From Pseudorhodoplanes sp. (GTDB lineage: Bacteria; Pseudomonadota; Alphaproteobacteria; Rhizobiales; Xanthobacteraceae): a stretch of 64,000 bases of DNA. Of this stretch, positions 10,815-64,000 are shown in pieces. The stretch's first letter is position 1, and each line of letters starts with the position of its first letter. Below the pieces are notes generated by a model. That model searched no databases. It was not told where the DNA came from and worked only from the letters and a program-made list of their open reading frames with translations. The DNA is taken from contig JABARS010000030.1 in NCBI GenBank assembly GCA_019187085.1, positions 1-64,000 on the forward strand. Direction: 5' to 3'. A program made the position numbers and the translations under genes.

Positions 10815-11170
10815 GTGACAGCGAGAGCAAGGTCCCCCTCCCCGATCTCGAGACGGCCCAGGCGCCGATGGTGCCTGAACCGGTGCCGCCGGTCACCGGC
10901 GACGCCGAAACCGGGACCAAGACCGCCGCCGACCTCGAGGCCATGTTCGACGTGCCGGTGCAGGTTTCGGCCGTGCTCGGCCGCACCCGCATGGACGTCT
11001 CGCAACTTCTCCGGCTCGGGCCGGGCGCGGTGCTCGAACTCGACCGCAAGGTCGGCGAGGCCATCGACATCTACGTCAACAACCGGCTCGTCGCACGCGG
11101 CGAGGTGGTGCTCGTCGAGGAAAAACTCGGCGTGACCATGACCGAAATCATCAAGACCGATCGGAGCTGA
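10811..11170 (+). CDS. fliN: Flagellar motor switch protein FliN
   Basis: FliN forms the base of the C ring and takes part in CheY-P switching. The 119-residue product has a variable acidic N-terminus and a C-terminal SpoA domain: FDVPVQVSAVLGRTRMDVSQ, LLRLGPGAVLELDRKVGEAI and NNRLVARGEVVLVEEKLGV. Its ATG overlaps the fliH stop by four bases. Confidence 0.96.
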   Translation: MSDSESKVPLPDLETAQAPMVPEPVPPVTGDAETGTKTAADLEAMFDVPVQVSAVLGRTRMDVSQLLRLGPGAVLELDRKVGEAIDIYVNNRLVARGEVVLVEEKLGVTMTEIIKTDRS

Positions 11171-11174
11171 AACC

Positions 11175-12545
<1,371 letters not shown>

Positions 12546-14440: not shown

Positions 14441-14463
14441 CGCGCGAACCCGCCGGGTGCGCA

Positions 14464-46862: not shown

Positions 46863-49090
46863 GCCTCGCCGAAGCCACCGATCTTTCGCCGTTCACCCAT
46901 CGCCACAGCGATGGCACCGCCAGCATGGAGTTCGCGGTCGAGGGCATCAATTGCGGAGGCTGCATCGGGCGGATCGAAAAGTCTCTGAAGCAGTTGAGCG
47001 GCGTCGACGACGCCCGCCTGAATTTCACCAACCGCCGCCTCACCATCGCCTGGACCGATCCGCATTTCGATCCATCGCAAGCGGTCGAGACGCTCGCCCG
47101 CATGGGCTATCGCGCCCATCCGTTCCGCCAGCGGGCCAGCGAGGAATACGAAGCGCAAGAAGCGCAAAGCCTGCTGCGCTACCTCGCCGTCGCCGGCTTC
47201 GCGGCGATGAACATCATGCTGCTGTCGGTTTCCGTCTGGTCCGGCAACGTCACCGACATCACGCCCGAGACGCGCGACCTCTTCCACTGGCTGTCGGCCG
47301 CGATCGCGCTGCCGGCGGCCGCCTATGCGGGCCAGCCATTCTTCCGCAGCGCGCTCTCGGCGCTGCGTGTACGCCAGGTCAATATGGACGTGCCGATCTC
47401 GCTCGGCATCCTGCTCGCGCTCGGAATGTCCCTCGTCGAGACGGCCAACCATACCGAGCATGCCTATTTCGACTCGGCGGTGATGCTGATCTTCTTTCTG
47501 CTATGCGGTCGCTATCTCGACCAGGCCATGCGCCGGCGCACGCGTGCAGTGGCCGGCAATCTGGCCGCGCTGAAAGCGGAGTTTGCGCATCGCCTGCTAG
47601 AGAGCGGCGAAGTGGTCCGCATTCCGGCGTCGGCTGTCCATGTCAACGACCGCCTGCTGATCCGTCCGGGCGAACGTATCCCTGCCGACGGCGTGGTCGT
47701 CGGCGGCCAGTCGCATGTGGACGAGAGCCTCGTCACCGGCGAGACGGCGCCGCGCATGGCCGAAGCCGGCGCGACCTTGTATGCCGGTAGCATCAACCTC
47801 GCGGGCGCGATCACGCTGCGCGTCACGGCCGCTGGACACAACACCCTGCTCGACGAAATCGACCGGCTGCTGGACAAGGCGGTCAAGGACAAGTCGCGCT
47901 ATGTCCAGCTCGCCGACCGCGCGGCCCGCTATTATGCACCGGTCGTGCACACGGCGGCGGCGGCCACCTTCGTCGGCTGGATGCTTGCCGGCCAATCGAC
48001 CCACTTCGCGATCATCACCGCGATCTCGGTTCTGATCATTACCTGCCCGTGCGCGCTCGCGCTCGCCATCCCGGCCGTGCAGGTGGTGGCGGCGGGCACG
48101 TTGTTCCGTAGCGGGATTTTCCTCAATGCCGGAAACGCGATCGAACGCCTCGCCGAGGTCGACACGATCGTCTTCGACAAGACAGGCACTCTGACCCTGC
48201 CCGAACCCTGCGTCGTCAATGCGGGGGAGATCGACACGCTTCTGCTCGATCATGCGGCACGGCTTGCGCTGTCGAGCCGCCATCCGCTCGCGGGTGCGCT
48301 CGCGCGCTATCGCGGCCAGCGTGAACCTTTCCCCGACGTCGCCGAAGAACCCGGCCAGGGCATTCGCACGACCTTCGAAGGCAAGGAGATGCGTCTGGGC
48401 AGCGCCGCCTTCTGCGGCCTGAGCGTACCGCAGGAGCTTACGGACCGTTATCCGGGCGCCTCGCTCATCGCGTTCCGCCATGGGAACAGGGAAGCCGTGC
48501 TTGCGATCCACCAGGCCTTGCGGCCGGACGCCGCCGAAACGGTGCGGGCACTGGCTGCACAGGGCATTACGCTTTCGATCCTGTCCGGCGACCGGGCTGC
48601 CGCCGTCGAGCCGGTGGCGCGCGATCTCGGCATCACCGATTGGCGCGCCGGGCTCAACCCGGCCGAAAAGGTCGCCATGCTGTTCGGACTGAAGGCACGC
48701 GGGCGTCACGTCCTGATGGTCGGCGACGGGATCAACGACGCGCCGTCGCTTGCCTCTGCCGATGTCTCGATGTCGCCCATCACGGCGGCCGATATTTCGC
48801 AGGCCCAGGCCGATGCCGTGTTCGTCAGCGACCGTCTCGAACCGGTGCTGCAGGCCGTGGTCATGGCGCGCAAGGCGCGGCGCCTGATGCGCGAAAACCT
48901 GTGGCTCGCGGCGGTCTATAATGCGTTCGCCGTTCCGATCGCCATGGCGGGCTTCGTCACGCCGCTGATCGCAGCCGCGGCAATGTCGGGATCGTCCCTT
49001 CTTGTGACCCTGAATGCCCTGCGCGCGCGCACTTTGCGCCAGCGCCCCGTCGAACGCGAAAGCGCACCCGCAAGGGAGGTTACGGCATGA
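46859..49090 (+). CDS. ccoI: Copper-transporting P1B-type ATPase CcoI
   Basis: CcoI (FixI) exports copper for cbb3 oxidase maturation. The 743-residue product has an N-terminal heavy-metal domain with C32-x2-C35 (EGINCGGCIGRIEKSLKQL), the transport motif ITCPCALALAIPAV, phosphorylation site VFDKTGTLTLPE and VGDGINDAPSLASADVSMS. The start at 46859 overlaps the ccoH stop. Upstream in-frame ATGs would lie inside ccoH. Confidence 0.96.
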   Translation: MSLAEATDLSPFTHRHSDGTASMEFAVEGINCGGCIGRIEKSLKQLSGVDDARLNFTNRRLTIAWTDPHFDPSQAVETLARMGYRAHPFRQRASEEYEAQEAQSLLRYLAVAGFAAMNIMLLSVSVWSGNVTDITPETRDLFHWLSAAIALPAAAYAGQPFFRSALSALRVRQVNMDVPISLGILLALGMSLVETANHTEHAYFDSAVMLIFFLLCGRYLDQAMRRRTRAVAGNLAALKAEFAHRLLESGEVVRIPASAVHVNDRLLIRPGERIPADGVVVGGQSHVDESLVTGETAPRMAEAGATLYAGSINLAGAITLRVTAAGHNTLLDEIDRLLDKAVKDKSRYVQLADRAARYYAPVVHTAAAATFVGWMLAGQSTHFAIITAISVLIITCPCALALAIPAVQVVAAGTLFRSGIFLNAGNAIERLAEVDTIVFDKTGTLTLPEPCVVNAGEIDTLLLDHAARLALSSRHPLAGALARYRGQREPFPDVAEEPGQGIRTTFEGKEMRLGSAAFCGLSVPQELTDRYPGASLIAFRHGNREAVLAIHQALRPDAAETVRALAAQGITLSILSGDRAAAVEPVARDLGITDWRAGLNPAEKVAMLFGLKARGRHVLMVGDGINDAPSLASADVSMSPITAADISQAQADAVFVSDRLEPVLQAVVMARKARRLMRENLWLAAVYNAFAVPIAMAGFVTPLIAAAAMSGSSLLVTLNALRARTLRQRPVERESAPAREVTA

Positions 49091-49997: not shown

Positions 49998-51089
49998 CTA
50001 ATAGATGCAGCCGCCGATCGGCGGTTTGCAGTTATAGCCATTGGCGCGGCATTTCCGCAGCGTCTCATCGTAATCGGCCGACGAGTTCCAGCCGGCGCCG
50101 CGCGTATTGCTTCCGACCGTGATGTAGACGCACCCGGAACTCCAGGCACCGGTCGCCTTGCAGTTCGGGCCGCCCGCCGACCGGCACTGCGCCAAAGCGA
50201 TCGTCTTGGCTTCCGACTCCGACGAGACAATGCCGGAATAGCCGATGGCGACGCGCACGCGGCCGCGGACCTTCCACACCGCACCGGCAACCGAATTCCA
50301 GCGCTCGACCGGCTTCGGCGGCGGGGCCAGCGCGGCAAGCGTGGAGCCTTCCGAGCGCAGGCGGTTGGCCAGATCGCCGGTCAGGTAGAGCGATGCCGGG
50401 AAGCCATTGGCCGCCGCATACTGCTTGAGATAATTGCGCTCCACCCCGGACAGGGACGAACGCAATTCGGGCTCGGCGGAGGAGCCGGAATAGCGTTTGC
50501 TGAGCGCCCAGCGGATCATCTTGAGATCGGAATCGGACAGCCTGAGCGCCTGCTCGGCCCGCTCGCGCGCCGATATCGCCGCATCCGACATCATCGATTC
50601 GGCATCGAAAGGACAATGCTTCTCGATCGCCGCGAGCAGCGCGTCGAAATCGAGATTGTCGTAACGGCTGCTGACATACTTGCTGGAATCGCTTCGCTTC
50701 GCGGTCACAAAGAACAATTGCTGCGACCGGAACATCTTCCCCATTTCCGACGTCAGGAATTGCCGCGTGCTCGCCTTGTCAGTCCGGAACGCGACCCGGG
50801 CGTTGTTCTGGACAAAGACCGGATTTGCGAACTGCGCCTCGTTCTCCACGCCGAACGAGAGGCGATCCATGCCGTCGGTGACAAAAGTGAGCCGCGGGGC
50901 CTGGCTGCCGCCGTGTGTCTGGGTCGGAACGAATGCGATCATGCAGCTGCGCGAACTGCGCGGCCCGCTACCGGAGATTTCCAGCTTGGCGTCGGACAAG
51001 AAAACCTCCGCGCCGGCGCCGCTCGCAAACATCGCCGTCGCAGCACAAGCAATCATTCCGACGAAACGCAATTGCATCAGGCGCGACAT
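49998..51089 (-). CDS. Exported protein with C-terminal DUF4189 domain
   Basis: The 363-residue product has a signal peptide ending ASGAGAEV and an N-terminal beta-rich region with RSSRSCMIAFVPTQTHGGS and a patterned VFVQNNARVAFRTD. A middle peptidoglycan-binding-like helical part follows (SDLKMIRWALSKRYSGS). The C-terminal DUF4189 has SESEAKTIALAQCRSAGGPN, SGCVYITVGSN and six or more Cys. DUF4189 domains are small disulfide-rich secreted modules of unknown role. It lies 108 bp downstream of the DUF1598-like gene on the same strand. Confidence 0.78.
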   Translation of the reverse strand: MSRLMQLRFVGMIACAATAMFASGAGAEVFLSDAKLEISGSGPRSSRSCMIAFVPTQTHGGSQAPRLTFVTDGMDRLSFGVENEAQFANPVFVQNNARVAFRTDKASTRQFLTSEMGKMFRSQQLFFVTAKRSDSSKYVSSRYDNLDFDALLAAIEKHCPFDAESMMSDAAISARERAEQALRLSDSDLKMIRWALSKRYSGSSAEPELRSSLSGVERNYLKQYAAANGFPASLYLTGDLANRLRSEGSTLAALAPPPKPVERWNSVAGAVWKVRGRVRVAIGYSGIVSSESEAKTIALAQCRSAGGPNCKATGAWSSGCVYITVGSNTRGAGWNSSADYDETLRKCRANGYNCKPPIGGCIY

Positions 51090-51197
51090 GCGAACTTGCT
51101 ATTCCCCTTCACCGAATTCTGGACGGTATCCTGTCCCCGGCGGCAAATTCTGGCGTGGACTGAAGTGGCTGTCTAGGCGAACGTTTGAGCGGTCGCT

Positions 51198-52574
51198 TCA
51201 GGTTTTGAACAGGTCTTTCAGCGAGCCGGGCGGCTTGGGCTTGCCAACATCGGGGGTGCTCGGCGCCGCCGGGGCAGTGGCCGGCGATTTCGGCCGCGAA
51301 CGGTCGAAAATCCCCTTCAGCACCGCCGGCGATACCGGCCAACTGACCGCTGCCATCTCGGGCGGCTTGGCCGCGATCACGGTGCGACCGGACGAGGAGG
51401 TCTCGGTCGCGACTTCGGTCGTGTCGATCGGCTTCGTAAAGCCCACCGTCACGCCGCCGCAAACCCAGTTGGTATAGAGGGTGGAGCTCCTGCGCTCGCG
51501 CTTGTTGTATTCTTCCCAGCGGCCGAGACCCGGCAAAGATTTCGGAACCGGCACAACCGGAAGTTCGTAGCGGTCCAGCAGCATATCCTGCGCGAAAGCG
51601 ACCTCCCGGAACGCCTTGCGGTCGGCGATGATCCGCGAGACCGCGAACAGGCGGAAAATGTTGTGCATGTCGCGCCAGATCGGCTCGGCGCGATAGGTGT
51701 CCTCCATGCGGGCCGTCCATGCGCAAGCGAATTCCCGCGATATGGGATCGACCTTCCCGGATGCGATGTTTGTATTCGACCGCTGGTCCTCGTCCCGCAG
51801 CACCACCTGCGCGGTGTCGAGGAAGACGGTGTCGGCCTCTTCGGAATACTGGTAGCTGAAACGACCGGGTTCAAACCAGTAACGCGTTTTATGGCCGGGC
51901 CCGAGATCGGCGCCGCGATCGATACGATTGCGCCATTCACGCAGCCGGACGGTATAGGTGCCGGGGAATGGCGAAGCGATCGGCAGTATCACGTCGCCCT
52001 GGCTCACCATCTTCATGCGATAGTCGGCTTCGACCAGTACCTTGGCGACACGGGAATTATGCGGCATGCCTTCGACGCGCACCGTCTGCGGGCGCGCGCA
52101 GATGGCTGCATGCTTTGCCTTGCGGGCGGGGTCGCGGACGGCAATCTTGTCGAGCTCGCGATAGACATTGAGATCGGGATCGATCGAAATCAGCGGATTC
52201 ACGATATAGGTCACGCCGTCGCGCTTCTCGTAATAACGGCCATGGGCCGCCCGTAGCGCGACCACGAGATCGGGAAGGTGCAGCTCGGGCTGGTTGCGTT
52301 CCGAAAGACCCCACAGAATGACGTCCTGGTTTTCCTTGTCCAGGATGAAGCCGTCGAGACGAGTCAGTCCTTCGAGACGCGCGGGCTTTCCGGCCTTCAT
52401 TGCTTCCGACAGCCGACGCAACGAGACCGCGCGCTCGGGCTTCGCCGTGGCCGGCCGCGGCCTGGGATCGCAGGCGAGCTCGAGCGCGGCACTGGCCGGC
52501 CCGCTCAGGAAGGGCGTCAGGCCGGCCGCGAGGCCGCCAGCGACGATATGACGGCGATTGAGTTCAAAGCGCAT
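51198..52574 (-). CDS. Tat-exported DUF1598-like protein
   Basis: The 458-residue product has a twin-arginine signal (NRRHIVAGGLAAGLTPFLSG). A DUF1598-like region at about 65-135 reads GLTRLDGFILDKENQDVILW, then LHLPDLVVALRAAHGRYY and PLISIDPDLNVY. A beta-rich middle contains TYRMKM-type strands and RYWFEPGRFSYQYSEEADTV, and the tail is Pro-rich (KPKPPGSLKDLF). The family is known mainly by sequence and its function is not established. Tat export implies folding, perhaps with a cofactor, before transport. Confidence 0.75.
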   Translation of the reverse strand: MRFELNRRHIVAGGLAAGLTPFLSGPASAALELACDPRPRPATAKPERAVSLRRLSEAMKAGKPARLEGLTRLDGFILDKENQDVILWGLSERNQPELHLPDLVVALRAAHGRYYEKRDGVTYIVNPLISIDPDLNVYRELDKIAVRDPARKAKHAAICARPQTVRVEGMPHNSRVAKVLVEADYRMKMVSQGDVILPIASPFPGTYTVRLREWRNRIDRGADLGPGHKTRYWFEPGRFSYQYSEEADTVFLDTAQVVLRDEDQRSNTNIASGKVDPISREFACAWTARMEDTYRAEPIWRDMHNIFRLFAVSRIIADRKAFREVAFAQDMLLDRYELPVVPVPKSLPGLGRWEEYNKRERRSSTLYTNWVCGGVTVGFTKPIDTTEVATETSSSGRTVIAAKPPEMAAVSWPVSPAVLKGIFDRSRPKSPATAPAAPSTPDVGKPKPPGSLKDLFKT

Positions 52575-52745
52575 GCGTGACGTCCGAGATGATGACGATC
52601 GAGAAATGCGAACCGGATCGGTCGTCCAGCCGGGGAACGATTACCGACCGCGACGCAACCGCAGTTCACGATCGAAGAGCCGTTTGCCGGCCAATGCGAT
52701 GGCGTAGAATGCAAGCTATCCCTGCGGTCATTCTTCACCCTGAAA

Positions 52746-53984
52746 CTAGTAAGCGGAATTGCGGCCGCGCAGGATATCGCGCCGCAGATTGACGAGATCT
52801 TCGCTCGTTTCCGAACGGGTCGGCGCCGGATTGAGGCGGATGCCGCCCGGCGCGGGACCGGCGCTGACGTCGGAGCCGGGAGCGGTGCGTCCCGGGGACA
52901 GCCCCGCAGTCGGCGGCGGCGCTGACGGCTCCGAGGCCGAAGGCGCAGTCGGCGCAGAAACGGAAGGCTCATGCGTCGGCGGCGCGGTCGGAGCGCTGAC
53001 CGAGGGCTCCCGGGCCGGCGGCGCGGTCGGTGCGGTTACGCTTGGCTCCCGCATTGTGGGCGCGGTCGGGGCCGGAATCGCGGCTATCGGCGGCGTGCGC
53101 GGAGGCGTGACCGTCACCGGAGGGGATGGCACACGCGGCGGCGGGGACGGACTGACCGTCGCGCCCGGTGTCCGCGGCGGCGAAGGTGACGTAATCGTCG
53201 AGGGGCGATCCGGCAGCGGCGTCGGGCCGCTGATGGTCGACGAAGGCGGCCGCGTTCCAGGCGCCGTGCTGACCGGCGGCGGCGTATAGCGCGGCGGGGT
53301 GTAATGCGGTGCCGGTCGCGTTGCCGGACCGTAATGCACAGTCGGCGTCGTGCGTCCCGATACGGTAGACGAGCGATAGGGCGGCGCCGGTGCATACGAA
53401 ACCACCTTGCCGAAACACAATTCGATGCATCCGAACTCGGGAGCCGCTTTCATGACCGGCCGGCGGCGGGAGTGTTTGCGGATCGCCTCCTCCATCAGCC
53501 GCTCGTCGCTCTTATCGAGCAACTCTTCGGCGTGCTCGAATGCAGAATCGATCATCCGGGTCAGGCCCCAGAGCAACGCTTTGCGTGCCGGAAACGGCAC
53601 GTGGTAATATTTGTCGAGCAGGGTGTCGGCGGCAAGCAATCCGAATTCACGCCAGCGCTCGGGCGAAGACGGATCGCTGGAATAGAAATCCAGCACCGTT
53701 TTGGCGTCTCCGATCCGCTTGGGTGCCTTGTCCCAGCCATACTCGATGGCAAGGTCGACCGCATCGCCCAGCATTTTGAGATCTTCCTTGCCCGCCGGGG
53801 TCTTGAAATACTCGCGGACCGGCTTGAAGGTATCAAGCGCAGCGAGCTCTGCGGACTCACGGGCAGGAACGGTACGCCCGGCGCCGTCGGGCATCAGGGC
53901 CGGACGGGCATGCAACGTCGCCGCAAAGCCGACAAGCGACGCAACGCATACGGGAACGAAAGAGAAAAGCGTTCTTGAACGCAT
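52746..53984 (-). CDS. Exported Pro-rich repeat protein
   Basis: The 412-residue product has a signal peptide (LFSFVPVCVASLVGFAATLH), a helical domain (about 40-175) with YYHVPFPARKALLWGLTRMI, and a conserved Cys pair in EFGCIELCFGKVV. About 210 residues of low-complexity Pro/Thr/Ser follow. Within these, a 15-residue unit of the type EPSV(T/S)APTAPP repeats about four times. The start at 53984 has GAGG upstream. It is divergent from the TPR gene. The Pro-rich part could span the cell wall. There is no family match. Confidence 0.78.
   Translation of the reverse strand: MRSRTLFSFVPVCVASLVGFAATLHARPALMPDGAGRTVPARESAELAALDTFKPVREYFKTPAGKEDLKMLGDAVDLAIEYGWDKAPKRIGDAKTVLDFYSSDPSSPERWREFGLLAADTLLDKYYHVPFPARKALLWGLTRMIDSAFEHAEELLDKSDERLMEEAIRKHSRRRPVMKAAPEFGCIELCFGKVVSYAPAPPYRSSTVSGRTTPTVHYGPATRPAPHYTPPRYTPPPVSTAPGTRPPSSTISGPTPLPDRPSTITSPSPPRTPGATVSPSPPPRVPSPPVTVTPPRTPPIAAIPAPTAPTMREPSVTAPTAPPAREPSVSAPTAPPTHEPSVSAPTAPSASEPSAPPPTAGLSPGRTAPGSDVSAGPAPGGIRLNPAPTRSETSEDLVNLRRDILRGRNSAY
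52927..53072. repeat. Coding tandem repeats in the Pro-rich protein
   Basis: Units of about 45 bp encode EPSVTAPTAPPAR-like blocks on the minus strand, about four in a row with small changes. The plus strand shows recurring GGCTCC and GGCGCGGTCGG at matching intervals. Confidence 0.65.
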
Positions 53985-54137
53985 CGCCCCGCCTCGTTGG
54001 AAATTCAAAGATTATCAAATCAGGCAAAGCCTAATTGACCCCTCTCGATGTCGTCAAGGGCGTATCTTCCGCCCCCACAGCGTGCTATCCTATTATAAAT
54101 ACGTCAGAAATTAACTCCCACTGGCTCTTGCACGACC

Positions 54138-55610
54138 ATGACTTTACGAACCTTTTTTCTTTGTCTCGCTGCCGGCCTGATACCGCTGTGCGGACCGGCG
54201 ACCGTCTTCGGTCAGGGCAACGCGCAGGCCGACTTCGATCTCTGCAAGAACGCGACGCGCGGTCGAAACGCCGACCCAAGCATCCTTGCCTGCACGCGGC
54301 TTCTCAACATCGAAATCCGCGAATCGGCCCACCGGCGCGCCGTCATGCTATCGTTCCGCGCACTCGGCTGGAAGGCCAAGGGCGACGTCAAGCGTGCCAC
54401 GGCCGACCTGACCGAAGCGATCGGCCTCGATGCTGGCTTCGCGCCGGCCTATGAGGCACGCGCCGACATCCAGCGCGAGAGCGACCAGTGCGACCGCGCG
54501 CGGCCGGACTACGATCAGGCCATCAAGCTGGCGCCGGACCGCGCGGGCGCCCGGTTCGGGCGCGCGCTGTGCCATGCCGAAGAAAAGAAAATCAAGGAGG
54601 CGATTGCCGATCTGGACGAGGCGATCAAGATCGATCCCGACAACGGCAAAGGCGTTGCCGCGCTCGCATGGAGCATGAAAGCGCGCCTGAACGTCACAGG
54701 CGGCAATATCGAGGCTGCGCTGGCGGCGTTCGAGGCCGCGGTCAAACTCGACCCGAAGCGTGCCGATCTCTATCTCGAACGCGCCCTCGTACTTGCCGGC
54801 CAGGGCAATGAGGAGCGCGCGCTTGCCGATTATGACCGCACGATCGAGCTTGGCGACAAGCGCTATGCCAGTGCCGCCTGGAGCGGCAAGGCCGCCCTGC
54901 ATGCGCGCAAGGAACGTTTTGACGCTGCGATCGCGGCCTACGACCAGGCGATCAATGCCGATCCCACGCATGCCGCCGCCTATGTGAGCCGCGCCGCGCT
55001 CCGCACGCGAAAGGGCGACCGCACGGGCGCACTGGCCGACCTCGATGCCGCAATTGCCCGTAATCCGGCCGTACCGACGCTCTACAAGGCGCGCGGTGAC
55101 TTCCACCGCGCGCAGCGCAACTACGTCAAGGCGCTTGCTGATTACGATCAGGCCATCGCGCTGCAGCCCGATTTCATCATCGCCTATGGCGACCGCGCGC
55201 TGCTGCGCTATTACATGGGCGATTTCGAGAAATCCGTCGACGATTTCCGGCACGTCAACGAACAGCAACCCAACGGCTATTCGGTGCTTTTCCATTATCT
55301 CGCCGCCACGCGCTCGGGTAAAGCCGTCGCTGCGGAGGAATTCAGCAAATCTATAAGTGCCCTGAAGCCTGCCGACTGGCCCTATCCCATTATCGAAGTC
55401 TTCCTCGGGAAGAAGAACGCCGAGACGCTCCAGAAGGAGGCGACCAAGCCGGCGGAGCGCTGCGAGGCGCACTTTTATCTGGGCGCATTCCAGCTCACGC
55501 GCGACCTCAAGGATCAGGCCGTCAAGGAACTGCGTGCCGCGGTCGCGAACTGCCCTGAGGATTTTGTCGAGTTTCGCGCCGCCGACGAAGATCTCAAACG
55601 GCTGAATTGA
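54138..55610 (+). CDS. Exported TPR-repeat protein
   Basis: The 490-residue product has a signal peptide (FFLCLAAGLIPLCGPATVFG) and an opening with DFDLCKNATRGRNADPSILA, resembling Sel1/TPR periplasmic proteins. Eight or so consecutive 34-residue TPRs follow, for example AIADLDEAIKIDPDNGKGVA, AIAAYDQAINADPTHAAAYV and ALADYDQAIALQPDFIIAYG. The C-terminal part (EVFLGKKNAETLQKEATKPA) continues helically. It is the only plus-strand gene among the exported set and is convergent with the second vWA gene. It is likely a periplasmic scaffold. Confidence 0.88.
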   Translation: MTLRTFFLCLAAGLIPLCGPATVFGQGNAQADFDLCKNATRGRNADPSILACTRLLNIEIRESAHRRAVMLSFRALGWKAKGDVKRATADLTEAIGLDAGFAPAYEARADIQRESDQCDRARPDYDQAIKLAPDRAGARFGRALCHAEEKKIKEAIADLDEAIKIDPDNGKGVAALAWSMKARLNVTGGNIEAALAAFEAAVKLDPKRADLYLERALVLAGQGNEERALADYDRTIELGDKRYASAAWSGKAALHARKERFDAAIAAYDQAINADPTHAAAYVSRAALRTRKGDRTGALADLDAAIARNPAVPTLYKARGDFHRAQRNYVKALADYDQAIALQPDFIIAYGDRALLRYYMGDFEKSVDDFRHVNEQQPNGYSVLFHYLAATRSGKAVAAEEFSKSISALKPADWPYPIIEVFLGKKNAETLQKEATKPAERCEAHFYLGAFQLTRDLKDQAVKELRAAVANCPEDFVEFRAADEDLKRLN

Positions 55611-55764
55611 CGGACCGGAACGGCCACCATCCGGAAAGCCGGGTCACACGGTCAGGAACCGATCAATTTCGCCGATCCGTCGGCAAACGCCGCCGAACAA
55701 AAACCCGACACGATGGCGACGACCCGACTTCCGACGCACCTGATCTCCGCCGACCGTATCGCGC

Positions 55765-57183
55765 CTACCGCTTGATCTCGCTCATAATCAGGTTGTCGAG
55801 CGTCACCCACAGACGCACCGTGTACCAGTCGGCGTTCAGCGCATAATTCTGTCGCGACGGCAGGGTCGAGGTCGATCGCAGCACCCGCGGTAGGATCGCC
55901 AGCATTTTCTGCTGGTGGGCCGCCGTGGCCACCGGCACGAACTGCTTCGGATCGAGATCGGCATCGCGCCGGCCTTCGGCCGCGCGCACGAGCTCCTGCA
56001 CGAGATCCGCGCCGAGCGTGTCGGAGAACTCGACATAGCGCGCGATCGCCACATTGCGCAGCTTCTGGTTCACCGTGCGAAGCGACTCGCCCGGCTCCGG
56101 CGTGACTTGCGCGAAAACGGCAACCGAGTTCTCCGGCAGATTGAGGTCGAGATTATCGGCGGAGACCAATTTTCCGAGCGCGGTAACGTGGCCGGAACTG
56201 TCCACATCCGCGCCGGACAAGACCACGAGAGTCGGAATGGCGCCGCCGTCGCGTTTTGCTTTCTGCATCGCCGACGCGATCCCCTCCAGCAGCGGCTCGC
56301 GATCGCCGCGTTCCGGCTTGTCGGCGCCAAGCGCCCGCCAGTTGACCGTCTGCAGATCCTTCAAGGCGACGTTGCTGGCGGCGGAGGACTTTTGCGCAAA
56401 ACCGCTTCCGAAATGCGTGATGGAAACGGAGCGGATTCGATCCTTCAGCGCATCGTTGCGCACCGCGAGCTTTGCGAAATCCGACAGCGCGGCATCTAGG
56501 AATCCTTTCGCACTGCTGCTGACGTCCAGCACGAAATACAGATCGAGCTTGCGGTCGCCGCCGGTCTTGGCGTTCTCGAACGCATCATACATCTGCTTGG
56601 AGATCGGCAGCATCACGGAAGCGATGCGCACCTGGCGGTCGCCGCCGAGCAAATCGAGCGTGTCAAGGCCGACCACCGGCAAGCGCAACGAAAAATTGGG
56701 GGCGGTCTCGAAAAATTCCTCGAAGTCCCATCGCGCCGCCGCCGTATTGATGCCGGACAGGAAGTCGTTCAGCTTGGTGGAGCTTTCCCAGAACCGGATG
56801 CGGGCACGCTCGCTGCGCATGAAATTGTCGGAGCTGGTGATCCAGTTCGGGACGTTCACGACCGTGACATGGGCAAGCCGCACATAAGCGAGTTTTCCGC
56901 TCTTGAGCTTGAGCTTGGCAGATTCGGCGCTCTGCTCGACAACCTCATAAGCGACGCCGAAATCGAAATTCTCCGAACGCCCCCTGGTGAGCGCGGCATC
57001 GTCGAAGACCATGAGCGGGCTTGCCTTGGCGAAAGCCTGGGCGACCGCAGTCTGCGCCGAAGATGGAACGCTGAAACCCAGCAGCAGGATTGCAACGGCG
57101 ACACCGGCGGCGATGGATCGCACGCAACCACCGCACCCGCGCCACCTGCTCCAGGTAAACATCGGCCATTCGCTCCATGACAT
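55765..57183 (-). CDS. Exported vWA-domain protein with SH3-like N-terminus
   Basis: The 472-residue product has a signal/anchor (GVAVAILLLGFSVPSSAQ). An SH3-like beta segment (about 70-110, VAYEVVEQSAESAKLKLKSG) follows, then a von Willebrand A domain from about 213 with an intact MIDAS start DVSSS (D220-x-S222-x-S224 in DLYFVLDVSSSAKGFL) and later VVLSGADVDSSG. A MIDAS binds a divalent metal and often a partner's acidic residue. A start at 57162 is also possible. It is the last gene of the four-gene strand and has the same order of domains as the 61707-63590 product. Confidence 0.85.
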   Translation of the reverse strand: MSWSEWPMFTWSRWRGCGGCVRSIAAGVAVAILLLGFSVPSSAQTAVAQAFAKASPLMVFDDAALTRGRSENFDFGVAYEVVEQSAESAKLKLKSGKLAYVRLAHVTVVNVPNWITSSDNFMRSERARIRFWESSTKLNDFLSGINTAAARWDFEEFFETAPNFSLRLPVVGLDTLDLLGGDRQVRIASVMLPISKQMYDAFENAKTGGDRKLDLYFVLDVSSSAKGFLDAALSDFAKLAVRNDALKDRIRSVSITHFGSGFAQKSSAASNVALKDLQTVNWRALGADKPERGDREPLLEGIASAMQKAKRDGGAIPTLVVLSGADVDSSGHVTALGKLVSADNLDLNLPENSVAVFAQVTPEPGESLRTVNQKLRNVAIARYVEFSDTLGADLVQELVRAAEGRRDADLDPKQFVPVATAAHQQKMLAILPRVLRSTSTLPSRQNYALNADWYTVRLWVTLDNLIMSEIKR

Positions 57184-57303
57184 GGTTTCCGACCCCGTTC
57201 GGCCTCTGCGTATTATTGTCCGGCTCTTTCAATCCCGGCGCAATCCCGCTCCTGCAGATCGCGCCCGGCCTGTCCCCGATCCCCGGGATATTCGTTGCAT
57301 CCG

Positions 57304-59433
57304 TTACAGTTTCGGGAATCCAAGGGATTCCTCCGTCACGAAAGTCAGCGCACAGCTCTGCTCGGTACCGGCTTCGGCGAGTTTCGCATTGCTCTGAACG
57401 AGCTTTTCCACGCCCGCTGCGTACCGGGACACGAACGAATAAGCCGCCAGGCTCTCGGTGGCGTTGAGGTCCTTGAGCGGCTTGCGGATCCAGTCCGGCA
57501 GCCCCCGGGGCAGTTTAAGGCTCACACCTCCCGGCAAATCCTGCAGAACATCATTCAGGCTCGGCGCGCTCTTTTTCAATCGCCCCGCCGTCTCCTTCAG
57601 GGCGCTTTCCTTCACCGAAGCCGCCCCCTCGGTCGCGGTCCATAATTGCTGGACGGCCCGCAGACCGGCGCGCAGGGTGTTCGCCGCGTCAGGCGCGAGG
57701 AGATAGCCGCGCTGATCGAAAAGGTCCTTGGCGGAGTGAACGAGCCTGCCCGTCAGACTCGGCGTATCGGAGCTCGGCGCGGGCGCGGGTTGCGCCGCGA
57801 GCCGCATCGCCGCAGAAGCGCGCAGGCGCACCGCCACCATATTGGGATCGTCGATGAAGCGCCTGCTCTCGGTTTTGGAATCAATCTCCTCGATCACGTC
57901 GCCGATCTGCATCGAATAGACCGGCTCCTTCAGGTAGGCGATGCTGAAACCCGGCATGCGCGCCGTGATGACCCCCAGCCATTTTCCGACATTGCCGTTG
58001 GGCGCGCGCACGACGGCCTTGCTTTCGGAGACCGCATTGAGGAGACGCTCGAACCGGGCCGGGAAACTGCTCGGCAAGGAATAGGCGCCCTTGAGCCAGT
58101 AGACCTTGTCGATCGGCATCGTCTGCGACGTCAGCAGGCGCTCGATGCCGTCGAGTAAGGTCTCGATCTGCCCCTGAGTCAGAGCTGCCGGCCGGCCGTC
58201 CCCCACCCGCTCGGACGCCGCCTTGATCAGGTCCTCGAACGAATTGTATTGCGCCACCAGACGCGTGGCGCCGGAATTCTCGATCGTATACCAGGCGATC
58301 TCGACCGGTGCCGGACCCCGGCTGATCTTTCGCAATTCCGCGGAGACACGGTCGAAACCGGAATAAACGACCTCCGGCGCGCCGCCGATCACGATCATCT
58401 TGAGCGTCACCGGCGCGGGCCGCGGCGCTTTCGGGTTTGCGACGGGCCGGGGCTGTCCCGGTAACGACACCCATGTCAGGTCCGAGCCCTTGACGGCTCC
58501 GGTGACATTCGACACCGGTTCATAGGTTGTCAGCTTGCCGACGCTGTCGGTCACGTCGAATGCATAATCCAGCGGAATGAGATCGCCGGAGACATTGAGA
58601 TAGTCGGACCCGCCGACTTCGGTGCGCTGGTTGCGCAGGCCGACAAGCTGCAGATTGGCGAGCGCCCCCTCGTCCAGCGCTTCCAGCGGCTGCAGCGTAC
58701 CGGCGTCGCAGACCGCATGGGCCTTCCTGGGGGCTGGCTTTGCGGCATCCGGCGCCACCGCGCGCCGGATGGCTTCGGCCATCGACTCGGTCGGCGGCGT
58801 ATCAGGTGGCGTATTCTTGCGTATGGGGCCGGGCTCGACGGCGGCTTCGCCCATCGATTTCTTCAGCGATTTCGGTGCTTCTGCCGCCTTCGGCTTCGCC
58901 GGCTCACTCGTCACACCCTTGTTGTATTTGTCCGCCAGATCGGACAGCGGCTTTTCCGGCTCGCGCGACACGCTCAGGGGCGGGCTTATCGGCCGCGCGC
59001 CGGGTTCACCCGACGGACACGTGATGGAGCGATACCCCTGTATCGCGCGCGCATCCAGATCGGCCCAACCCATGGTTACTTTTATCGACGTCTGTTCGCC
59101 GTCAGGCACGAAATCGATCGTATCGCCGGCTGGAACGGTGAACCCCAGACGGAGATATGGATCGACGAAGAACGCGGCCAGCATGGTGCTCTGCGCGATA
59201 AACCAGCCGGGCACCGTTCTTCCCTTAACGGCATTGCGGCCCCGGAAATAATATCCGCGTTTGAATTCCGCGAGATGTAATTTCCTTTGCCCCGGTCGCG
59301 TTACGTGAATTGGGCTCCAGTATTCGCACGTGTCCGGCCCCTCGATTGAGCTCGAACCGGCGACGGGCTCGGCACGAACCGAAGCGGCGCCGATCAGCAG
59401 AGCAACGCTGGCGAACAGGCAAGGCCGGATCAT
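57304..59433 (-). CDS. Large exported protein of unknown function
   Basis: The 709-residue product has a signal peptide (LFASVALLIGAASVRAEP). A beta-rich N-terminal domain contains GYYFRGRNAVKGRTVPGWFI and GFTVPAGDTIDFVPDGEQTS. A charged linker (about 155-240) follows, then a middle part with YLNVSGDLIPLDYAFDVTD. An alpha/beta domain (about 345-480) begins VTLKMIVIGGAPEVVYSGFD, and a helical C-terminus ends with LDFV-type residues. The alpha/beta part has the order of a vWA fold but no DxSxS, so it may be a metal-free relative. It starts 20 bp after the ABC transporter gene, implying one transcript. Not recognised as a family. Confidence 0.78.
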   Translation of the reverse strand: MIRPCLFASVALLIGAASVRAEPVAGSSSIEGPDTCEYWSPIHVTRPGQRKLHLAEFKRGYYFRGRNAVKGRTVPGWFIAQSTMLAAFFVDPYLRLGFTVPAGDTIDFVPDGEQTSIKVTMGWADLDARAIQGYRSITCPSGEPGARPISPPLSVSREPEKPLSDLADKYNKGVTSEPAKPKAAEAPKSLKKSMGEAAVEPGPIRKNTPPDTPPTESMAEAIRRAVAPDAAKPAPRKAHAVCDAGTLQPLEALDEGALANLQLVGLRNQRTEVGGSDYLNVSGDLIPLDYAFDVTDSVGKLTTYEPVSNVTGAVKGSDLTWVSLPGQPRPVANPKAPRPAPVTLKMIVIGGAPEVVYSGFDRVSAELRKISRGPAPVEIAWYTIENSGATRLVAQYNSFEDLIKAASERVGDGRPAALTQGQIETLLDGIERLLTSQTMPIDKVYWLKGAYSLPSSFPARFERLLNAVSESKAVVRAPNGNVGKWLGVITARMPGFSIAYLKEPVYSMQIGDVIEEIDSKTESRRFIDDPNMVAVRLRASAAMRLAAQPAPAPSSDTPSLTGRLVHSAKDLFDQRGYLLAPDAANTLRAGLRAVQQLWTATEGAASVKESALKETAGRLKKSAPSLNDVLQDLPGGVSLKLPRGLPDWIRKPLKDLNATESLAAYSFVSRYAAGVEKLVQSNAKLAEAGTEQSCALTFVTEESLGFPKL

Positions 59434-59452
59434 CGCATTTTGATCCCTGAAG

Positions 59453-61621
59453 TCAGGATTGCAGCACCTTCGCCGGATCAGAATGGGCCGTCTTCACGGC
59501 CGGATAGATGGCAGCGAGCACGCCGACGACCACGGAACACACGATAATCACGACGAAGAACTGCCCGATGGGCGCGAACACCGCCTCGAAACCGGCGTCG
59601 GGATTCTGTTCGGCCAGGAAGCCGCGCGCGCTGTCGATCAGGGTCGACGCGATCGCAAGTCCCACCAATGTGCCGCACAGCACCATCAGGGCGGTCGAGA
59701 CCACCTGGGTCGCGACCAGATCGCCGCGCCGCATTCCGAGGACGCGCCAGAGCGCGAATTCGGTCTCGCGCAGCTTGGCGCTGGAGAACAAATTCGTCGC
59801 CACGGTCAAGCTGACCGCGAGCACGATGAGAACGAGCAGAGGCACGAAAATATTCCAGGCCAGGTCCCGCAGGTCGAGCACCCATTTGTAGTTCCAGATG
59901 TCGGAAGCCGGCTTGTAGCCGAGCTGCGACAATTGCTGGAACACCGGAATGATGTCGCGTATTTCCTTGGTGTAGACCTGAAGCTGGTCTTCCCACGGAA
60001 ACGCCGCGATGCGCGCGATCTCGGCGCGGTCGCCTTCCCAGGAATCCCCCGTCGTATTGACCGGCAGGTTGACGGAGCCGTCACGATCCATCTTGAAGCG
60101 GTCGAAGACGAGCTGCGTGCGGTTCGGCAAATACATGCGCCGGCCGCCCTCCGCATGCAGGATGAGTCCGACGACTTTGAGCTGAATACGCCGCGCGCGC
60201 GCGGTCAGTTCCTGGCCGGTTCGCGAGAATTGCGGCAATTCGATCGTGATCGCCCGCCCGATGAAGTCAGCGTATTTCAGTTGCCCCTCGGCGAGCTTGT
60301 CCGCATCGGCAAAAACGTCGGGCAACAGCCCGACCGTCGCGATGATTTCCAGCTCCTCGTTGCTCGGGCTGAAGCGCCCGCCGGCGACGAAATCGAGCAG
60401 GCGATATTCGGGATCGTCCGGATGCAGCCCGAGCGCCGACGTCACCAGCTTCTCGCCACCACGATCGATCAGGCGTGCCAGCGTCGCGCGCCGCGGGACG
60501 ATCGCCTGCACGTTCGGCCAGGACTTGATCGTGTCAATGACGGGGAAGCGGTTCTCGAGATTGAGGTCGTTGACCCGCGGCTTCACCTCCAGCCGGTTGA
60601 GACGCGAACCGCGCGTCATGGCGTCGTCGAGGAATCCCTGCGCGCCGAGAATGACCGACGTGAAGACGCCGATCTGGCAGACGCCGACGCACAACGACAC
60701 CACCACCAGGAAGAGGAAGATCGGACGCAGGAAGGCTTCGCGCATCGCCTGCCTGAGCAGGATGGAAAGCGGCGCGCGCGGCCGCCAGCCGTAAAAAATA
60801 GCCCGCTCGTTGGCGGGCGCACGAAGCGGAATTTCGACGCTGCTCTTGTGTGTGTCGCCGGCCAGCTCCTTCAGGACGCCGCCGGACAATTCGAATTGCC
60901 GGCCGTGCTGATAAAAGACCTTGTCGTGGGAAACGATGATGACGGTATGCCCTTCGTCGCAAAGCGACATCATCAGCTTGAGGATTTCCTGCTTGCGGCT
61001 CTCGTCGAGACTCGCGGTCGGCTCATCGGCCAGGATGATCGCGGGCTTGGTCACCACCGAACGCAGGATCGCCGCGCGCTGCTTCTGGCCGCCCGAGACC
61101 TGCGCCGGACGGTTCGACAGGATGTGATTGCTCAGTTCCTCGACGGTGAAGAAGCGCGGCGCCATGGCGTCGACCGTCTGACGCAGCGCGCGACGCTCGC
61201 TTTCGGTCCCCTGCAGGCGGACCGGCAACGACACATTGTCCCGGATCGACAGATGCTCGAACAGCCGCCCTTCCTGGAAAATGAAGCCGATATTGTTCGC
61301 GCGCAATTCGTCGCGCTGCCAGTCGGCTTTCGCTTTCACGTCGGCGCCGAGAAAGATGTAGTCGCCCTCGAAATCGCTATCCAGCATGCCAAGAATGCGA
61401 AGCAGCGAGGTTTTCCCCGAGCCGCTTTCGCCGCGGATCACGTTGAACGAACCGGCCCTGATCTCGAGATTGAGGCCCTTGAGCACCTCCACCACTTCGC
61501 CGGTCGCGCTGGTATAGGACTTGTAGACATTGCGCAGCGCCACGACCGTCGCGGGCGCGCCGTCAGAATTGGCGTCCGGGCCCGCGCCGGGCTGCTGCCA
61601 GTTTCCCCTCTTGTCAAGCAT
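59453..61621 (-). CDS. MacB-like ABC transporter (ATPase fused to FtsX-type permease)
   Basis: The 722-residue product joins an ATPase (about 25-255) to a permease. The ATPase has Walker A GESGSGKT, Q-loop FIFQEGRLF, signature VSGGQKQR, Walker B IILADEPT and H-loop VSHD. The permease has one helix near 300 (IFLFLVVVSLCVGVCQIGVF), a periplasmic domain of about 260 residues, then three helices near the end (IFVPLLVLIVLAVSLTVATN, LMVLCGTLVGLAIASTLI, FVVIIVCSVVVGVLAAIYPA). This is the MacB type VII layout, used for mechanotransmission in lipoprotein handling, peptide efflux or cell-wall control. No MacA or TolC partner is encoded here. It lies between the first vWA gene and the 709-residue gene. 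Confidence 0.88.
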   Translation of the reverse strand: MLDKRGNWQQPGAGPDANSDGAPATVVALRNVYKSYTSATGEVVEVLKGLNLEIRAGSFNVIRGESGSGKTSLLRILGMLDSDFEGDYIFLGADVKAKADWQRDELRANNIGFIFQEGRLFEHLSIRDNVSLPVRLQGTESERRALRQTVDAMAPRFFTVEELSNHILSNRPAQVSGGQKQRAAILRSVVTKPAIILADEPTASLDESRKQEILKLMMSLCDEGHTVIIVSHDKVFYQHGRQFELSGGVLKELAGDTHKSSVEIPLRAPANERAIFYGWRPRAPLSILLRQAMREAFLRPIFLFLVVVSLCVGVCQIGVFTSVILGAQGFLDDAMTRGSRLNRLEVKPRVNDLNLENRFPVIDTIKSWPNVQAIVPRRATLARLIDRGGEKLVTSALGLHPDDPEYRLLDFVAGGRFSPSNEELEIIATVGLLPDVFADADKLAEGQLKYADFIGRAITIELPQFSRTGQELTARARRIQLKVVGLILHAEGGRRMYLPNRTQLVFDRFKMDRDGSVNLPVNTTGDSWEGDRAEIARIAAFPWEDQLQVYTKEIRDIIPVFQQLSQLGYKPASDIWNYKWVLDLRDLAWNIFVPLLVLIVLAVSLTVATNLFSSAKLRETEFALWRVLGMRRGDLVATQVVSTALMVLCGTLVGLAIASTLIDSARGFLAEQNPDAGFEAVFAPIGQFFVVIIVCSVVVGVLAAIYPAVKTAHSDPAKVLQS

Positions 61622-61706
61622 GCAGGCAGATCGCCTCCGGTACGAGCTTCAAGACACGTTTTATGAATACACGCCGATGCGCTGCCTGATGCGCGGACGA
61701 CAAGAC

Positions 61707-63590
61707 TCAAGGCAATTGCGAGACCGGCATCCACACCGCCGGGGTCTTATCGAAAGCCTCGAGGTTCGCCTCCAGGTACTGGCTGAGCAGGGTGCCGGCG
61801 TTCTGGATGCGCTTTGTCATGGCAAGGCGCTCTTCGCGATTCATGCCTGCAAGATATTCGAGGTTGAAATCGAGCAGCTTGGTGCGGAACTGGATGCCCA
61901 GACGTTTGCGGATGGTCGCCTCGATGCTCTCTTTCGGATCGAATCCCTCGCCCGCAATGGCGGCGAGCGCGCGCGAAGCGCTCTCCTTCATCGCATTGAC
62001 GTCGACGCCGGCCACGCCGAGCGCCGAGAACAGCGTCACGAGATTTTCGAGCGTGCGCTTCTCGATCTGGATCTGCGGTTCGAGCAGATCGTTGTTCTCG
62101 AGGATATAGCCCTCACGGATAAGGACGCCGCCTTTGCCCGGATCGATATTGAAATTGATGCCGGCCGTGCGCAGACGGTTGAGCTTCTCGCCGTCGAGGA
62201 CGGCGAGCGGAATGGTGGCATAACCGCGATAGTCGAATTCGAGCTTCGAGAGGTCCTTGCGTCCCTCCTCGGCAGTTTTCTTCATGGTGGTGGCGAGCTG
62301 GGCGGCCACGGCCGCCGTCACTTTCTTGGTGCGCTCGTCGCCACCTTTGCCCCACTCGACGAAGGTGCCGCCGGTGGTTTCGGCGAGCGTGGTCAGCACC
62401 GGCACCAGATTCGAGCCGGCATTCGGACCAGCCTGGACGGTAATGACCTGGATACCGCTGGCGAGCAAATCGCCGGCAATACGGGCGGGATCGAGCCCGG
62501 GCGGAACGCGATTGTCGATCTTGCCTGTCGTCTGCGGTTTGGCGTCGTCGTTGAGCACCGCAAGGATGACTCGGCGTCCCGACCCCTGATGGCCGGCACT
62601 CCAGTCGAAAATATTGTGGGCGAGATAGACGGCGTCGAGCACGGGTTCGGCGGCGTCACCACCACCCTGCATGTATCCCTTGCTCGCGGCTTCCTGCAGC
62701 GCCTTGGTTGCGTCTGCGACCGTTTGCGGCTTCACGATCACGACCTTTTCGTCGTCGTCCTCGTCGCGGAAAAAGACGAAGCCGATGCTCGAGCCCTTGG
62801 TGACCTCGGGCGGCAGCGAATCGAAGGCGACCTTGATGTCGCGCGCGATTTCCTTGGCGAAGTCCGACATCGACGCCGTGGCATCGAAGGCGATCACGAA
62901 CGTCGCGCTCGTCATCGTCTTGTCGAGCTTGGCCGTCACGGCGGTCTTGTTCTCGCCTTCCTTCGGCGCGATCACGACCTTGGCTTCCGGCGGCAGCGCG
63001 GCCGGCAGCAGGACGTTGAAGACCCGCTTCTCGACGCTCTTGCGCAGCAGGCGGGTCTTGCTGGTGAGCACCGGATAGGGACGCGTCGAGCGCTCGCGCT
63101 TCAGGGTGCTTTCGAGATTCTCGCGGAACGCCGGCGGCGCGACTTTCTGGTTGCCGGTGTCGAGAAACTTGCCGAGCACATCCTCATCGTCCCAGGCCAC
63201 GATCTCCGGGCGGTCACCGCTGAAGGCGACGACGCTGAAATTCAGCGCTTCGCGCGTCGGCCAGGGATGAACCTGTTCCTTGAGGACGAACCCGACCTTG
63301 CCGGTCTCGGCCTGGGCGACCGTTTCGGCCGGAAGATCGGTGATCTTGTAGAACTGATCGACCTCGCAGATGACGAAATAAGGAGCCAGCAACTCGAGCG
63401 TGAAGGCGACGTCCTTCGAGCCGGGCGTCTTCTTGGCTTCGACGTTGTTGGAGCCGCCGACAACCTTGTAAATGAAGCCGCTCTCGGTCGTCTTCATCTT
63501 CTCGGCGGTACAGGCCAGAGCGACGTTTCCGAGACCAAGAAAGGCAAACAAAACGACCGACAGCCTGATGAAAAAATTATCGGACGGCAT
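61707..63590 (-). CDS. Exported vWA-domain protein with SH3-like N-terminus
   Basis: The 627-residue product has a signal peptide (SVVLFAFLGLGNVALA). An SH3-like part (about 38-115, GFIYKVVGGSNNVEAKKTPG, ending GFVLKEQVHPW) follows, then a vWA domain from about 228 with MIDAS D236-x-T238-x-S240 (FVIAFDATASMSDFA), GGGDAAEPVLDAVY and VILAVLNDD, and a long helical C-terminus. The SH3-like plus vWA order resembles, from memory, the C-terminal region of PpkA-type kinases, but there is no kinase domain here. The ATG at 63590 has GAGGGGTGAG upstream. It is the first gene of the four-gene strand. Confidence 0.87.
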   Translation of the reverse strand: MPSDNFFIRLSVVLFAFLGLGNVALACTAEKMKTTESGFIYKVVGGSNNVEAKKTPGSKDVAFTLELLAPYFVICEVDQFYKITDLPAETVAQAETGKVGFVLKEQVHPWPTREALNFSVVAFSGDRPEIVAWDDEDVLGKFLDTGNQKVAPPAFRENLESTLKRERSTRPYPVLTSKTRLLRKSVEKRVFNVLLPAALPPEAKVVIAPKEGENKTAVTAKLDKTMTSATFVIAFDATASMSDFAKEIARDIKVAFDSLPPEVTKGSSIGFVFFRDEDDDEKVVIVKPQTVADATKALQEAASKGYMQGGGDAAEPVLDAVYLAHNIFDWSAGHQGSGRRVILAVLNDDAKPQTTGKIDNRVPPGLDPARIAGDLLASGIQVITVQAGPNAGSNLVPVLTTLAETTGGTFVEWGKGGDERTKKVTAAVAAQLATTMKKTAEEGRKDLSKLEFDYRGYATIPLAVLDGEKLNRLRTAGINFNIDPGKGGVLIREGYILENNDLLEPQIQIEKRTLENLVTLFSALGVAGVDVNAMKESASRALAAIAGEGFDPKESIEATIRKRLGIQFRTKLLDFNLEYLAGMNREERLAMTKRIQNAGTLLSQYLEANLEAFDKTPAVWMPVSQLP

Positions 63591-64000
63591 CAGCTCACCC
63601 CTCAATATTGGTTGCTAAAAACTAGCCCACATTCCGAGCGCGTTGCAATATGGCCACCGGTATCGGCCAAGCCTTTGCAGCGGCCGACCCGCTTAACCGC
63701 CTGCTGAGTATCCTGGGATTCCAGAGTACCCCGGCAGCGGTCCGGCAATTGCCAACCTACGCGGCGGGATAGAGCGAACTTACGGGCGCCTGGGCTCCTG
63801 GATGTCAATGATCCGCCCGCGTGCTCCGGGTTCCAAAACTCAACCCTGAAGCATCCAGACCTGCGCATGACGCCCAAAAGCCGGTCTGACGGCGTGCCTT
63901 TTATCGCGCCGGATATGTTGATTATGCCGATTATAATGTGGGGGGTAACCATACCCCGGCTCCTGGCCATTTTGCAGCGCGGCAACGGTCGCGGCCAAAG
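63591..64000. other. Intergenic stretch at window end
   Basis: No supported gene. A minus-strand open frame across much of it overlaps the start of the vWA gene and has no signal, motif or good ribosome site. The AT-richer part near 63900-63950 (with TTATAATG) could hold the promoter of the four-gene strand, about 320 bp upstream, but no -35/-10 pair is convincing. Confidence 0.4.

Follow-up and report, generated by a model that had tools for sequence, protein, structure and literature searches.

A rare operon joining a MacB-type ABC protein to vWA-fold proteins in Pseudorhodoplanes, and a candidate C-terminal tag on its exported partners

A 64,000-nucleotide stretch of the genome of Pseudorhodoplanes sp. 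(positions 1 to 64,000 of contig JABARS010000030.1; hereafter the window, contig C17 in a genome of 3.7 Mb) carries an operon of four genes for a MacB-type ATP-binding cassette (ABC) protein and three exported proteins to which a von Willebrand factor A (vWA) fold can be assigned by model or motif. The ABC and vWA genes are inherited together in five genomes, namely the window's own, Pseudorhodoplanes sp. SB26, Bradyrhizobium sp. YR681, Rhodobacteraceae HTCC2150 and G1384 (hereafter the five operon genomes), and a described complex with all members was not found in the open-licence literature. This is in line with an initial annotation of the window that had proposed a new envelope system at this locus; the C-terminal SLxDLF tag shared by exported proteins, which that annotation had missed, is the best clue to the mechanism. 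It is possible, if still doubtful, that the locus represents an undescribed class of Type VII ABC systems in which mechanotransmission would drive a periplasmic gripper, made of vWA domains with a metal-ion-dependent adhesion site (MIDAS), on exported proteins that carry the tag SLx[DE]LF[KR]T as their own sorting or docking signal.

Composition and conservation of the operon

The four genes lie on the minus strand in the order vWA1, ABC, P709 and vWA2:

61707-63605, minus strand: vWA1, open reading frame (ORF) of 632 amino acids (aa) from a TTG start
59453-61621, minus strand: ABC protein, ORF of 722 aa
57304-59433, minus strand: P709, ORF for the 709-aa protein
55765-57162, minus strand: vWA2, ORF, with the ATG at 57162 taken as the true start

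Successive genes are separated by 85, 19 and 141 bp. For vWA1 an ATG at 63590 is as good a start as the TTG at 63605, and for vWA2 the ATG at 57162 was taken instead of the ORF end at 57183 because of a stop codon in SB26, the nearest relative and the reference for all dN/dS comparisons. The dN/dS values of 0.04 for vWA1, 0.08 for the ABC gene, 0.22 for P709 and 0.10 for vWA2 indicate that all four genes are coding and under purifying selection, and together with the ORFs and the short gaps they confirm the group of four close genes (vWA, ABC, 709-aa, vWA) listed by the initial annotation. The neighbouring genes for a DUF1598, a DUF4189 and a Pro-rich protein, described below, have values of 0.09, 0.15 and 0.22, respectively, so that the core of the putative machine is under tight constraint and its outer parts evolve faster.

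With respect to the ABC protein, Pfam finds an ABC_tran domain (1.8e-25, residues 47-203) and an FtsX domain (7.8e-9, residues 596-713). The nucleotide-binding domain (NBD) is N-terminal, and there are four hydrophobic segments (residues 292-328, 581-615, 635-665 and 676-712). Because about 250 residues lie between the first two of them, forming a predicted periplasmic domain (approximately residues 329-580), the topology is that of MacB (PMC5985334), and the protein with its FtsX-like permease can be assigned on this basis to the MacB-type or Type VII ABC proteins, as had been suggested from the start. It was ruled out as a MacB ortholog by its score of 170 bits, far below the equivalog cut-off of 966; MacB_PCD is not among its Pfam matches, and it is only 25-31% identical to the MacB-family proteins that were its best matches in plasmids. 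A role as a defence system was likewise rejected, as the PADLOC matches to the ABC protein are to a generic ATPase only.

The exported protein vWA1 consists of an N-terminal domain with two invariant Cys, a vWA domain and a conserved C-terminal domain. The first of these is probably a small, SH3-like beta barrel in the structure model, its sequence having weak matches only and none to a family above cut-off. The model of the second matches the vWA fold (Z 17.3, root-mean-square deviation (rmsd) 2.8, 177 residues), and the motifs D-x-T-x-S, GGGD and DDAK are kept in six sequences, the exception being a duplicate in YR681 without the last Ser of the first motif (D-x-T-x-D). In the five operon genomes vWA1 is 94-46% identical, and in the comparison with G1384 it reaches 46.3% overall and 47-51% by domain, against 43.7% for the NBD of the ABC protein. 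Judged by these identities, its conservation equals that of the NBD, which is unusual in a soluble exported protein.

The second vWA protein, vWA2, is also exported and has a homolog in each of the five operon genomes, at 86-18% identity; its assignment rests on a D-x-S-x-S motif at the expected place. In G1384 this protein (4064-7837) includes a fused coiled coil of about 700 aa, which could in principle span the periplasm. P709, which has no Pfam family match, comprises a signal peptide, an N-terminal beta domain, a disordered linker (residues 141-340), a vWA-fold domain (approximately 341-550) without the metal-site motif, and a C-terminal domain. When the model of its central domain was compared with known structures, the matches listed were vWA domains (Z 9.4, rmsd 3.3, 155 residues); all structure models were built from five sequences each and are of modest overall confidence. 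Three vWA-fold proteins, two of them by model (vWA1 and P709) and one by motif (vWA2), thus appear to accompany one ABC protein. Of the two SH3-like/vWA proteins proposed by the initial annotation, the vWA fold of the first and the MIDAS motif of the second were upheld, the label SH3-like is plausible, and the 709-aa protein has to be added to the vWA-fold proteins. Homologs of P709 occur in SB26, HTCC2150 and, in two copies, YR681, where a second vWA1 (8079-9938) adjoins a divergent second P709 (5538-7892), as if paired paralogs had arisen; the same locus holds a truncated duplicate of the P709 N-terminus (243 aa, 14170-14901) with a near-identical signal peptide, which ends near the motif SIGELL.

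A scan of 84,980 genomes for vWA1 returned SB26, HTCC2150 and YR681, using exact peptide seeds that divergent copies can escape. Profile searches of 296 genomes of the family, 385 of the class, 349 of the phylum and 149 of the Rhodobacterales, the order of HTCC2150, found the full-length protein in 2, 1, 1 and 2 of them, respectively, G1384 being the second match in the order; these samples overlap, the window's genome being counted in the family, class and phylum sets, and since groups were sampled and few candidates scored per genome the counts are lower bounds. Further matches in the family (about 1e-8 to 4e-5) cover the vWA domain alone and belong to other proteins. The system therefore appears to be very rare and patchy in its distribution. 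A plasmid-borne system was rejected, as vWA1, P709 and the DUF1598 protein have no match in 72,556 plasmids, and viral contigs likewise gave no relative of vWA1.

Where the system occurs, vWA1 and the ABC gene are adjacent (five of five operon genomes). The order in YR681 is vWA1-ABC-P709-vWA2-N-domain protein (the last corresponding to the DUF4189 gene of the window), with duplicates of vWA1 and P709, one truncated duplicate being inserted; HTCC2150 has vWA1-ABC-P709 with vWA2 just upstream, and in G1384 vWA1-ABC faces a pair formed by the N-domain protein and vWA2. P709 was not detected in G1384, where it may be present unrecognised since it evolves fast. The conserved set hence consists of the ABC protein, vWA1, vWA2 and the N-domain protein, with P709 in four of the five genomes. 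Conservation of the gene order beyond close relatives, a test set in advance, was thus found in Bradyrhizobium and two Rhodobacterales, but not as a spread across the Hyphomicrobiales. Although HTCC2150 and G1384 belong to one order, vWA1 of HTCC2150 is more similar to that of the window (54.7%) than to that of G1384 (46.7%), which suggests that the genes were transferred laterally or lost differentially.

As to the surroundings of these loci, a transposase-like gene lies near that of HTCC2150. In G1384, the N-domain protein and vWA2 have genes directly upstream of them (192-4300; 810-2807) that encode an M50-HlyD fusion, a SecA-like ATPase and a protein resembling GAF-HlyD. The M50-HlyD and SecA-like genes were rejected as members, as they adjoin the system only there; M50-HlyD does not occur in the genome of the window, in SB26 or in YR681, and in HTCC2150 it is encoded elsewhere in the genome.

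Exported partners and the C-terminal motif

The exported partners and the motifs relevant to the tag are the following:

51198-52574, minus strand: Tat-exported DUF1598 protein; candidate client
51201-51224, minus strand: C-terminal tag SLKDLFKT of the DUF1598 protein, with the stop codon at 51198-51200
58930-58950, minus strand: degenerate tag-like motif PLSDLAD in the P709 linker (residues 162-168)
49998-51089, minus strand: Sec-exported N-domain protein (DUF4189 gene), its N-domain kept in complete operon loci

The DUF1598 protein (Tat signal; Pfam DUF1598, 2.2e-9) is known in five copies, two in the window's genome (in the window and on contig C1), two in SB26 and one beside the operon in YR681; it was not found in HTCC2150. 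Tagged copies are present in all three operon-bearing genomes of the family in contrast to none of 148 others (Fisher's test, p = 1.8e-6), and by this co-occurrence the DUF1598 protein can be counted as part of the system. The second tagged gene of the window's genome (contig C1; 73-1527 of a separately numbered piece) is not on the operon's contig and is followed by what look by eye like genes for a thermonuclease and an M48-type protease.

All five copies end in a variant of the same motif (SLKDLFKT, SLKDLFKT, SLQELFKT, SLQGLFKT and SLRELFRT), the protein of the window in GSLKDLFKT, and their Pro/Ala-rich tail often holds a second or third copy upstream of the end. In HTCC2150 the gene directly after P709 codes for an exported protein that is not homologous to DUF1598 and ends in GSLSDLFKTD, with a second copy 28 residues earlier. 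The consensus at the C-terminus of exported proteins is S-[LI]-x-[DE]-[LM]-F-[KR]-T. A degenerate-DNA pattern, which leaves out SLQGLFKT, gave 52 matches in the four P709-bearing genomes, and among those read in frame, C-terminal copies were found on the DUF1598 copies and the tagged protein of HTCC2150 only. Looser motifs occur in the disordered linkers of P709 (RLIDLF, KISDLF and GLGDLF in relatives, PLSDLA in the window) and in the truncated P709 duplicate (SIGELL), and a CAP protein at the HTCC2150 locus carries SLSDLA. The pattern [LI]x[DE][LM]F was seen five times in P709 linkers and the tagged protein of HTCC2150, against 0.024 expected by shuffling; as the tag was first spotted by eye in these very proteins, this gauges how strong the signal is but does not count as an independent discovery, and co-occurrence and C-terminal position are the stronger evidence. 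Since the strict motif is absent from vWA1, the ABC protein, vWA2 and the N-domain proteins, it behaves like a ligand, whose putative receptor is most likely among these four.

The N-domain, i.e. the first 250 or so residues of the DUF4189 gene product (approximately residues 1-255 in the window, where Pfam finds DUF4189 at 9.8e-7), is present in every complete operon locus, and for this reason the gene is counted as a member. YR681 has three copies. The C-terminal module that follows the domain is swapped: Pseudorhodoplanes has DUF4189, the copies in YR681 have PAN, repeats of unknown kind and a module without assignment, HTCC2150 has WG repeats, and G1384 has a sub-threshold match to IalB. 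A peptidoglycan-binding fold in this protein, suggested by eye, was supported neither by Pfam nor by hhalign.

Two further genes of the window complete the neighbourhood:

52746-53990, minus strand: Pro-rich exported protein, conserved in Pseudorhodoplanes SB26 only; membership uncertain
54138-55610, plus strand, opposite to the operon: TPR protein, without a match in the loci of relatives

The Pro-rich gene has 57.8% identity in SB26 and no match at the other loci, and the TPR gene was rejected as a member for want of a match in any relative locus. Both look like bystanders, so that of the four exported neighbours named by the initial annotation (TPR, Pro-rich, DUF1598 and DUF4189), all of which are present, only the last two belong to the system. 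A gene for a copper-type P-ATPase, FixI-like by eye, is located just before the cluster (46787-49090), and an old-yellow-enzyme-like gene lies beyond its other end (4309-5421 of a separately numbered piece).

Proposed mechanism and rival explanations

Our tentative explanation, to which we would give clearly less than even chances, is a Type VII ABC machine that works by mechanotransmission and in which the vWA/MIDAS proteins hold on to tagged clients in the periplasm. Type VII ABC proteins move their periplasmic domains by means of ATP, and periplasmic partners turn this motion into work (PMC5985334, PMC12646458), as established for MacB (PMC5985334) and YbbAP-TesA (PMC12646458). In the proposed machine, binding and hydrolysis of cytoplasmic ATP would close and open the stalks and periplasmic domains of an ABC dimer, and the motion would be handed on to vWA1 as the slowest-evolving soluble part. 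The MIDAS of vWA1, vWA2 or both might then grip the tag by its conserved Asp or Glu, with this acid as the sixth ligand of the metal, each ATP cycle pulling on, delivering, remodelling or releasing the tagged client. Candidate clients would be the Tat-exported DUF1598 protein here and the other exported protein in HTCC2150; the tag-like linker of P709 may serve as an internal ligand or as a scaffold in competition with clients, and the N-domain protein could connect the machine, via its swapped C-terminal modules, with ligands that vary and lie in the envelope or outside the cell. By analogy, the principle would be a periplasmic counterpart of the AAA+/vWA remodellers, with a membrane ABC protein replacing the AAA+ motor. 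In NorQ-NorD (PMC9976466) and CbbQ-CbbO (PMC4660213) the target is bound through an acidic residue at the vWA metal site, and function is lost when the site or the residue is mutated; here, the MIDAS residues of vWA1 are conserved but for one duplicate, and the acid of the tag but for the last motif of one DUF1598 copy.

Several observations weigh against this explanation. In the copy ending in SLQGLFKT the last motif is without the acid, although a SLEEMF in the same tail keeps it, and the linker motifs of the window's own P709 are degenerate. The motif of vWA2 in G1384 is D-x-S-x-Y, and the model of P709 is of modest confidence (mean predicted local distance difference test score 57, the vWA part lying mostly at 60-88). 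Finally, no C-terminal tag on a plausible gene was found among the pattern matches in G1384; as this genome has the core machine without a detected P709 or tag, tag handling cannot be the sole role of the system.

Among the alternatives, trans-envelope signalling of the TagQRST-PpkA kind is rather unlikely, if the most probable of them. N-domain modules would sense surface ligands, the vWA proteins would act as a relay, the ATPase state of the ABC protein would signal to the cytoplasm, and the tagged proteins would be parts of the sensor. PAN, WG repeats and DUF4189 are indeed typical binding modules; however, a gene for a kinase, a histidine kinase, FHA or a regulator is lacking from the conserved set, no such domain was found in the nine locus proteins scanned, and the ABC protein is a fused MacB-type protein, whereas TagT and TagS are separate. 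It is also unlikely that the ABC protein extracts or exports a lipid, lipoprotein or peptide, with the vWA proteins as carriers or outer parts in the manner of LolCDE-LolA, YbbAP-TesA or MacAB-TolC. Such transport would fit with LolCDE, YbbAP and MacB being Type VII ABC proteins (PMC5985334, PMC12646458) and with the HlyD, M50-HlyD and SecA-like genes next to the system in G1384, but M50-HlyD is missing or, in HTCC2150, away from the locus in the other genomes named above, MacB_PCD was undetected in the ABC protein, and a MacA, TolC, LolA-like or hydrolase gene is lacking from the conserved set.

Improbable to a greater degree is a cell-wall regulator in which the ABC protein would switch peptidoglycan-acting partners via vWA adaptors. 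FtsEX, the model for this, is the best-studied mechanotransmitter (PMC11491553), and the HTCC2150 locus holds two PG_binding_1 proteins besides the CAP protein with SLSDLA, while a lytic transglycosylase with PG_binding_1 adjoins the Bradyrhizobium locus; yet none of these PG_binding_1, CAP and transglycosylase genes is conserved at the locus of the window, and the N-domain protein has no PG_binding match in Pfam or hhalign. Least credible of all would be an island of envelope genes that move laterally but are unrelated to one another, without any machine, in which the tag reflects common descent of the tails. The patchy distribution, the vWA1 identities of HTCC2150 (54.7% to the window, 46.7% to G1384) and the transposase-like gene near its locus would be in keeping with this, but not the strong purifying selection, the adjacency of vWA1 and ABC that is fixed at 36-69% ABC identity, the co-occurrence of an unlinked DUF1598 paralog, and the presence of the tag on non-homologous proteins.

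Relation to known systems and significance

As in the Type VII ABC systems MacB, FtsEX, LolCDE and YbbAP-TesA, no substrate need cross the membrane and periplasmic partners are encoded alongside, but these partners are three vWA-fold proteins, the N-domain protein and tagged proteins instead of MacA, EnvC, LolA or TesA. The conserved set at the loci of the five genomes contains no MacA or TolC, as the initial annotation had stated for the window, and HlyD-like genes adjoin the system only in G1384; unlike FtsEX-EnvC, the ABC protein is fused and not split into FtsE and FtsX, and no EnvC-like gene is found at the locus of the window. The MoxR AAA+/vWA systems (NorQ-NorD, CbbQ-CbbO and RavA-ViaA) likewise couple an ATPase to a vWA protein whose MIDAS is able to take an acid of the target as sixth ligand. 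They are, however, cytoplasmic AAA+ hexamers as opposed to a membrane ABC protein with exported vWA proteins, and no AAA+ MoxR gene is in the conserved set here.

The TagQRST-PpkA system of type VI secretion shares an inner-membrane ABC transporter, periplasmic parts and an extracellular vWA domain, but here the ABC protein is one chain, there is no kinase, phosphatase, TagQ or TagR, and none of the nine locus proteins has a kinase domain. TssR of the type VI membrane complex of Bacteroidota is, like vWA1, an exported protein with an N-terminal domain, a central vWA and a further domain (PMC10781749), but it is a lipoprotein, and no TssNQOP genes were seen at the present loci. The N-terminal barrel model of TssR (PF17643) gave a sub-threshold match to the N-terminus of HTCC2150 vWA1 (9962-11800; 14.8 bits against a cut-off of 25.7, E = 0.03), and the two other vWA1 N-terminal sequences tested as well as the vWA and C-terminal parts had no match to TssR models.

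C-terminal sorting tags such as PEP-CTERM, LPXTG and the type IX C-terminal domain are short motifs placed after a linker on differing proteins and recognised by a dedicated machine. The present tag resembles them in being a short conserved C-terminal motif after a Pro/Ala-rich linker on otherwise differing proteins, but it has no transmembrane helix or basic tail, its motif is repeated two or three times, and no sortase, exosortase or PorU gene was seen at the locus. Thus, the type of ABC protein, the vWA fold and the idea of an ATPase working with a gripping vWA protein are already known. Their combination here, the association of a single membrane ABC protein with three vWA proteins, the modular N-domain proteins and the C-terminal tag were not found in the open-licence literature.

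There is no ATP in the periplasm, and how energy is supplied for remodelling or moving its proteins is a standing question, to which Type VII ABC proteins are among the few known answers. The locus gives this class a new set of partners and a candidate for a short client tag, in a system carried by named strains, Bradyrhizobium sp. YR681 and Rhodobacteraceae HTCC2150. If the tag binds the vWA metal site, it would provide a simple and transplantable way of linking a periplasmic protein of choice to the use of ATP in the cytoplasm.

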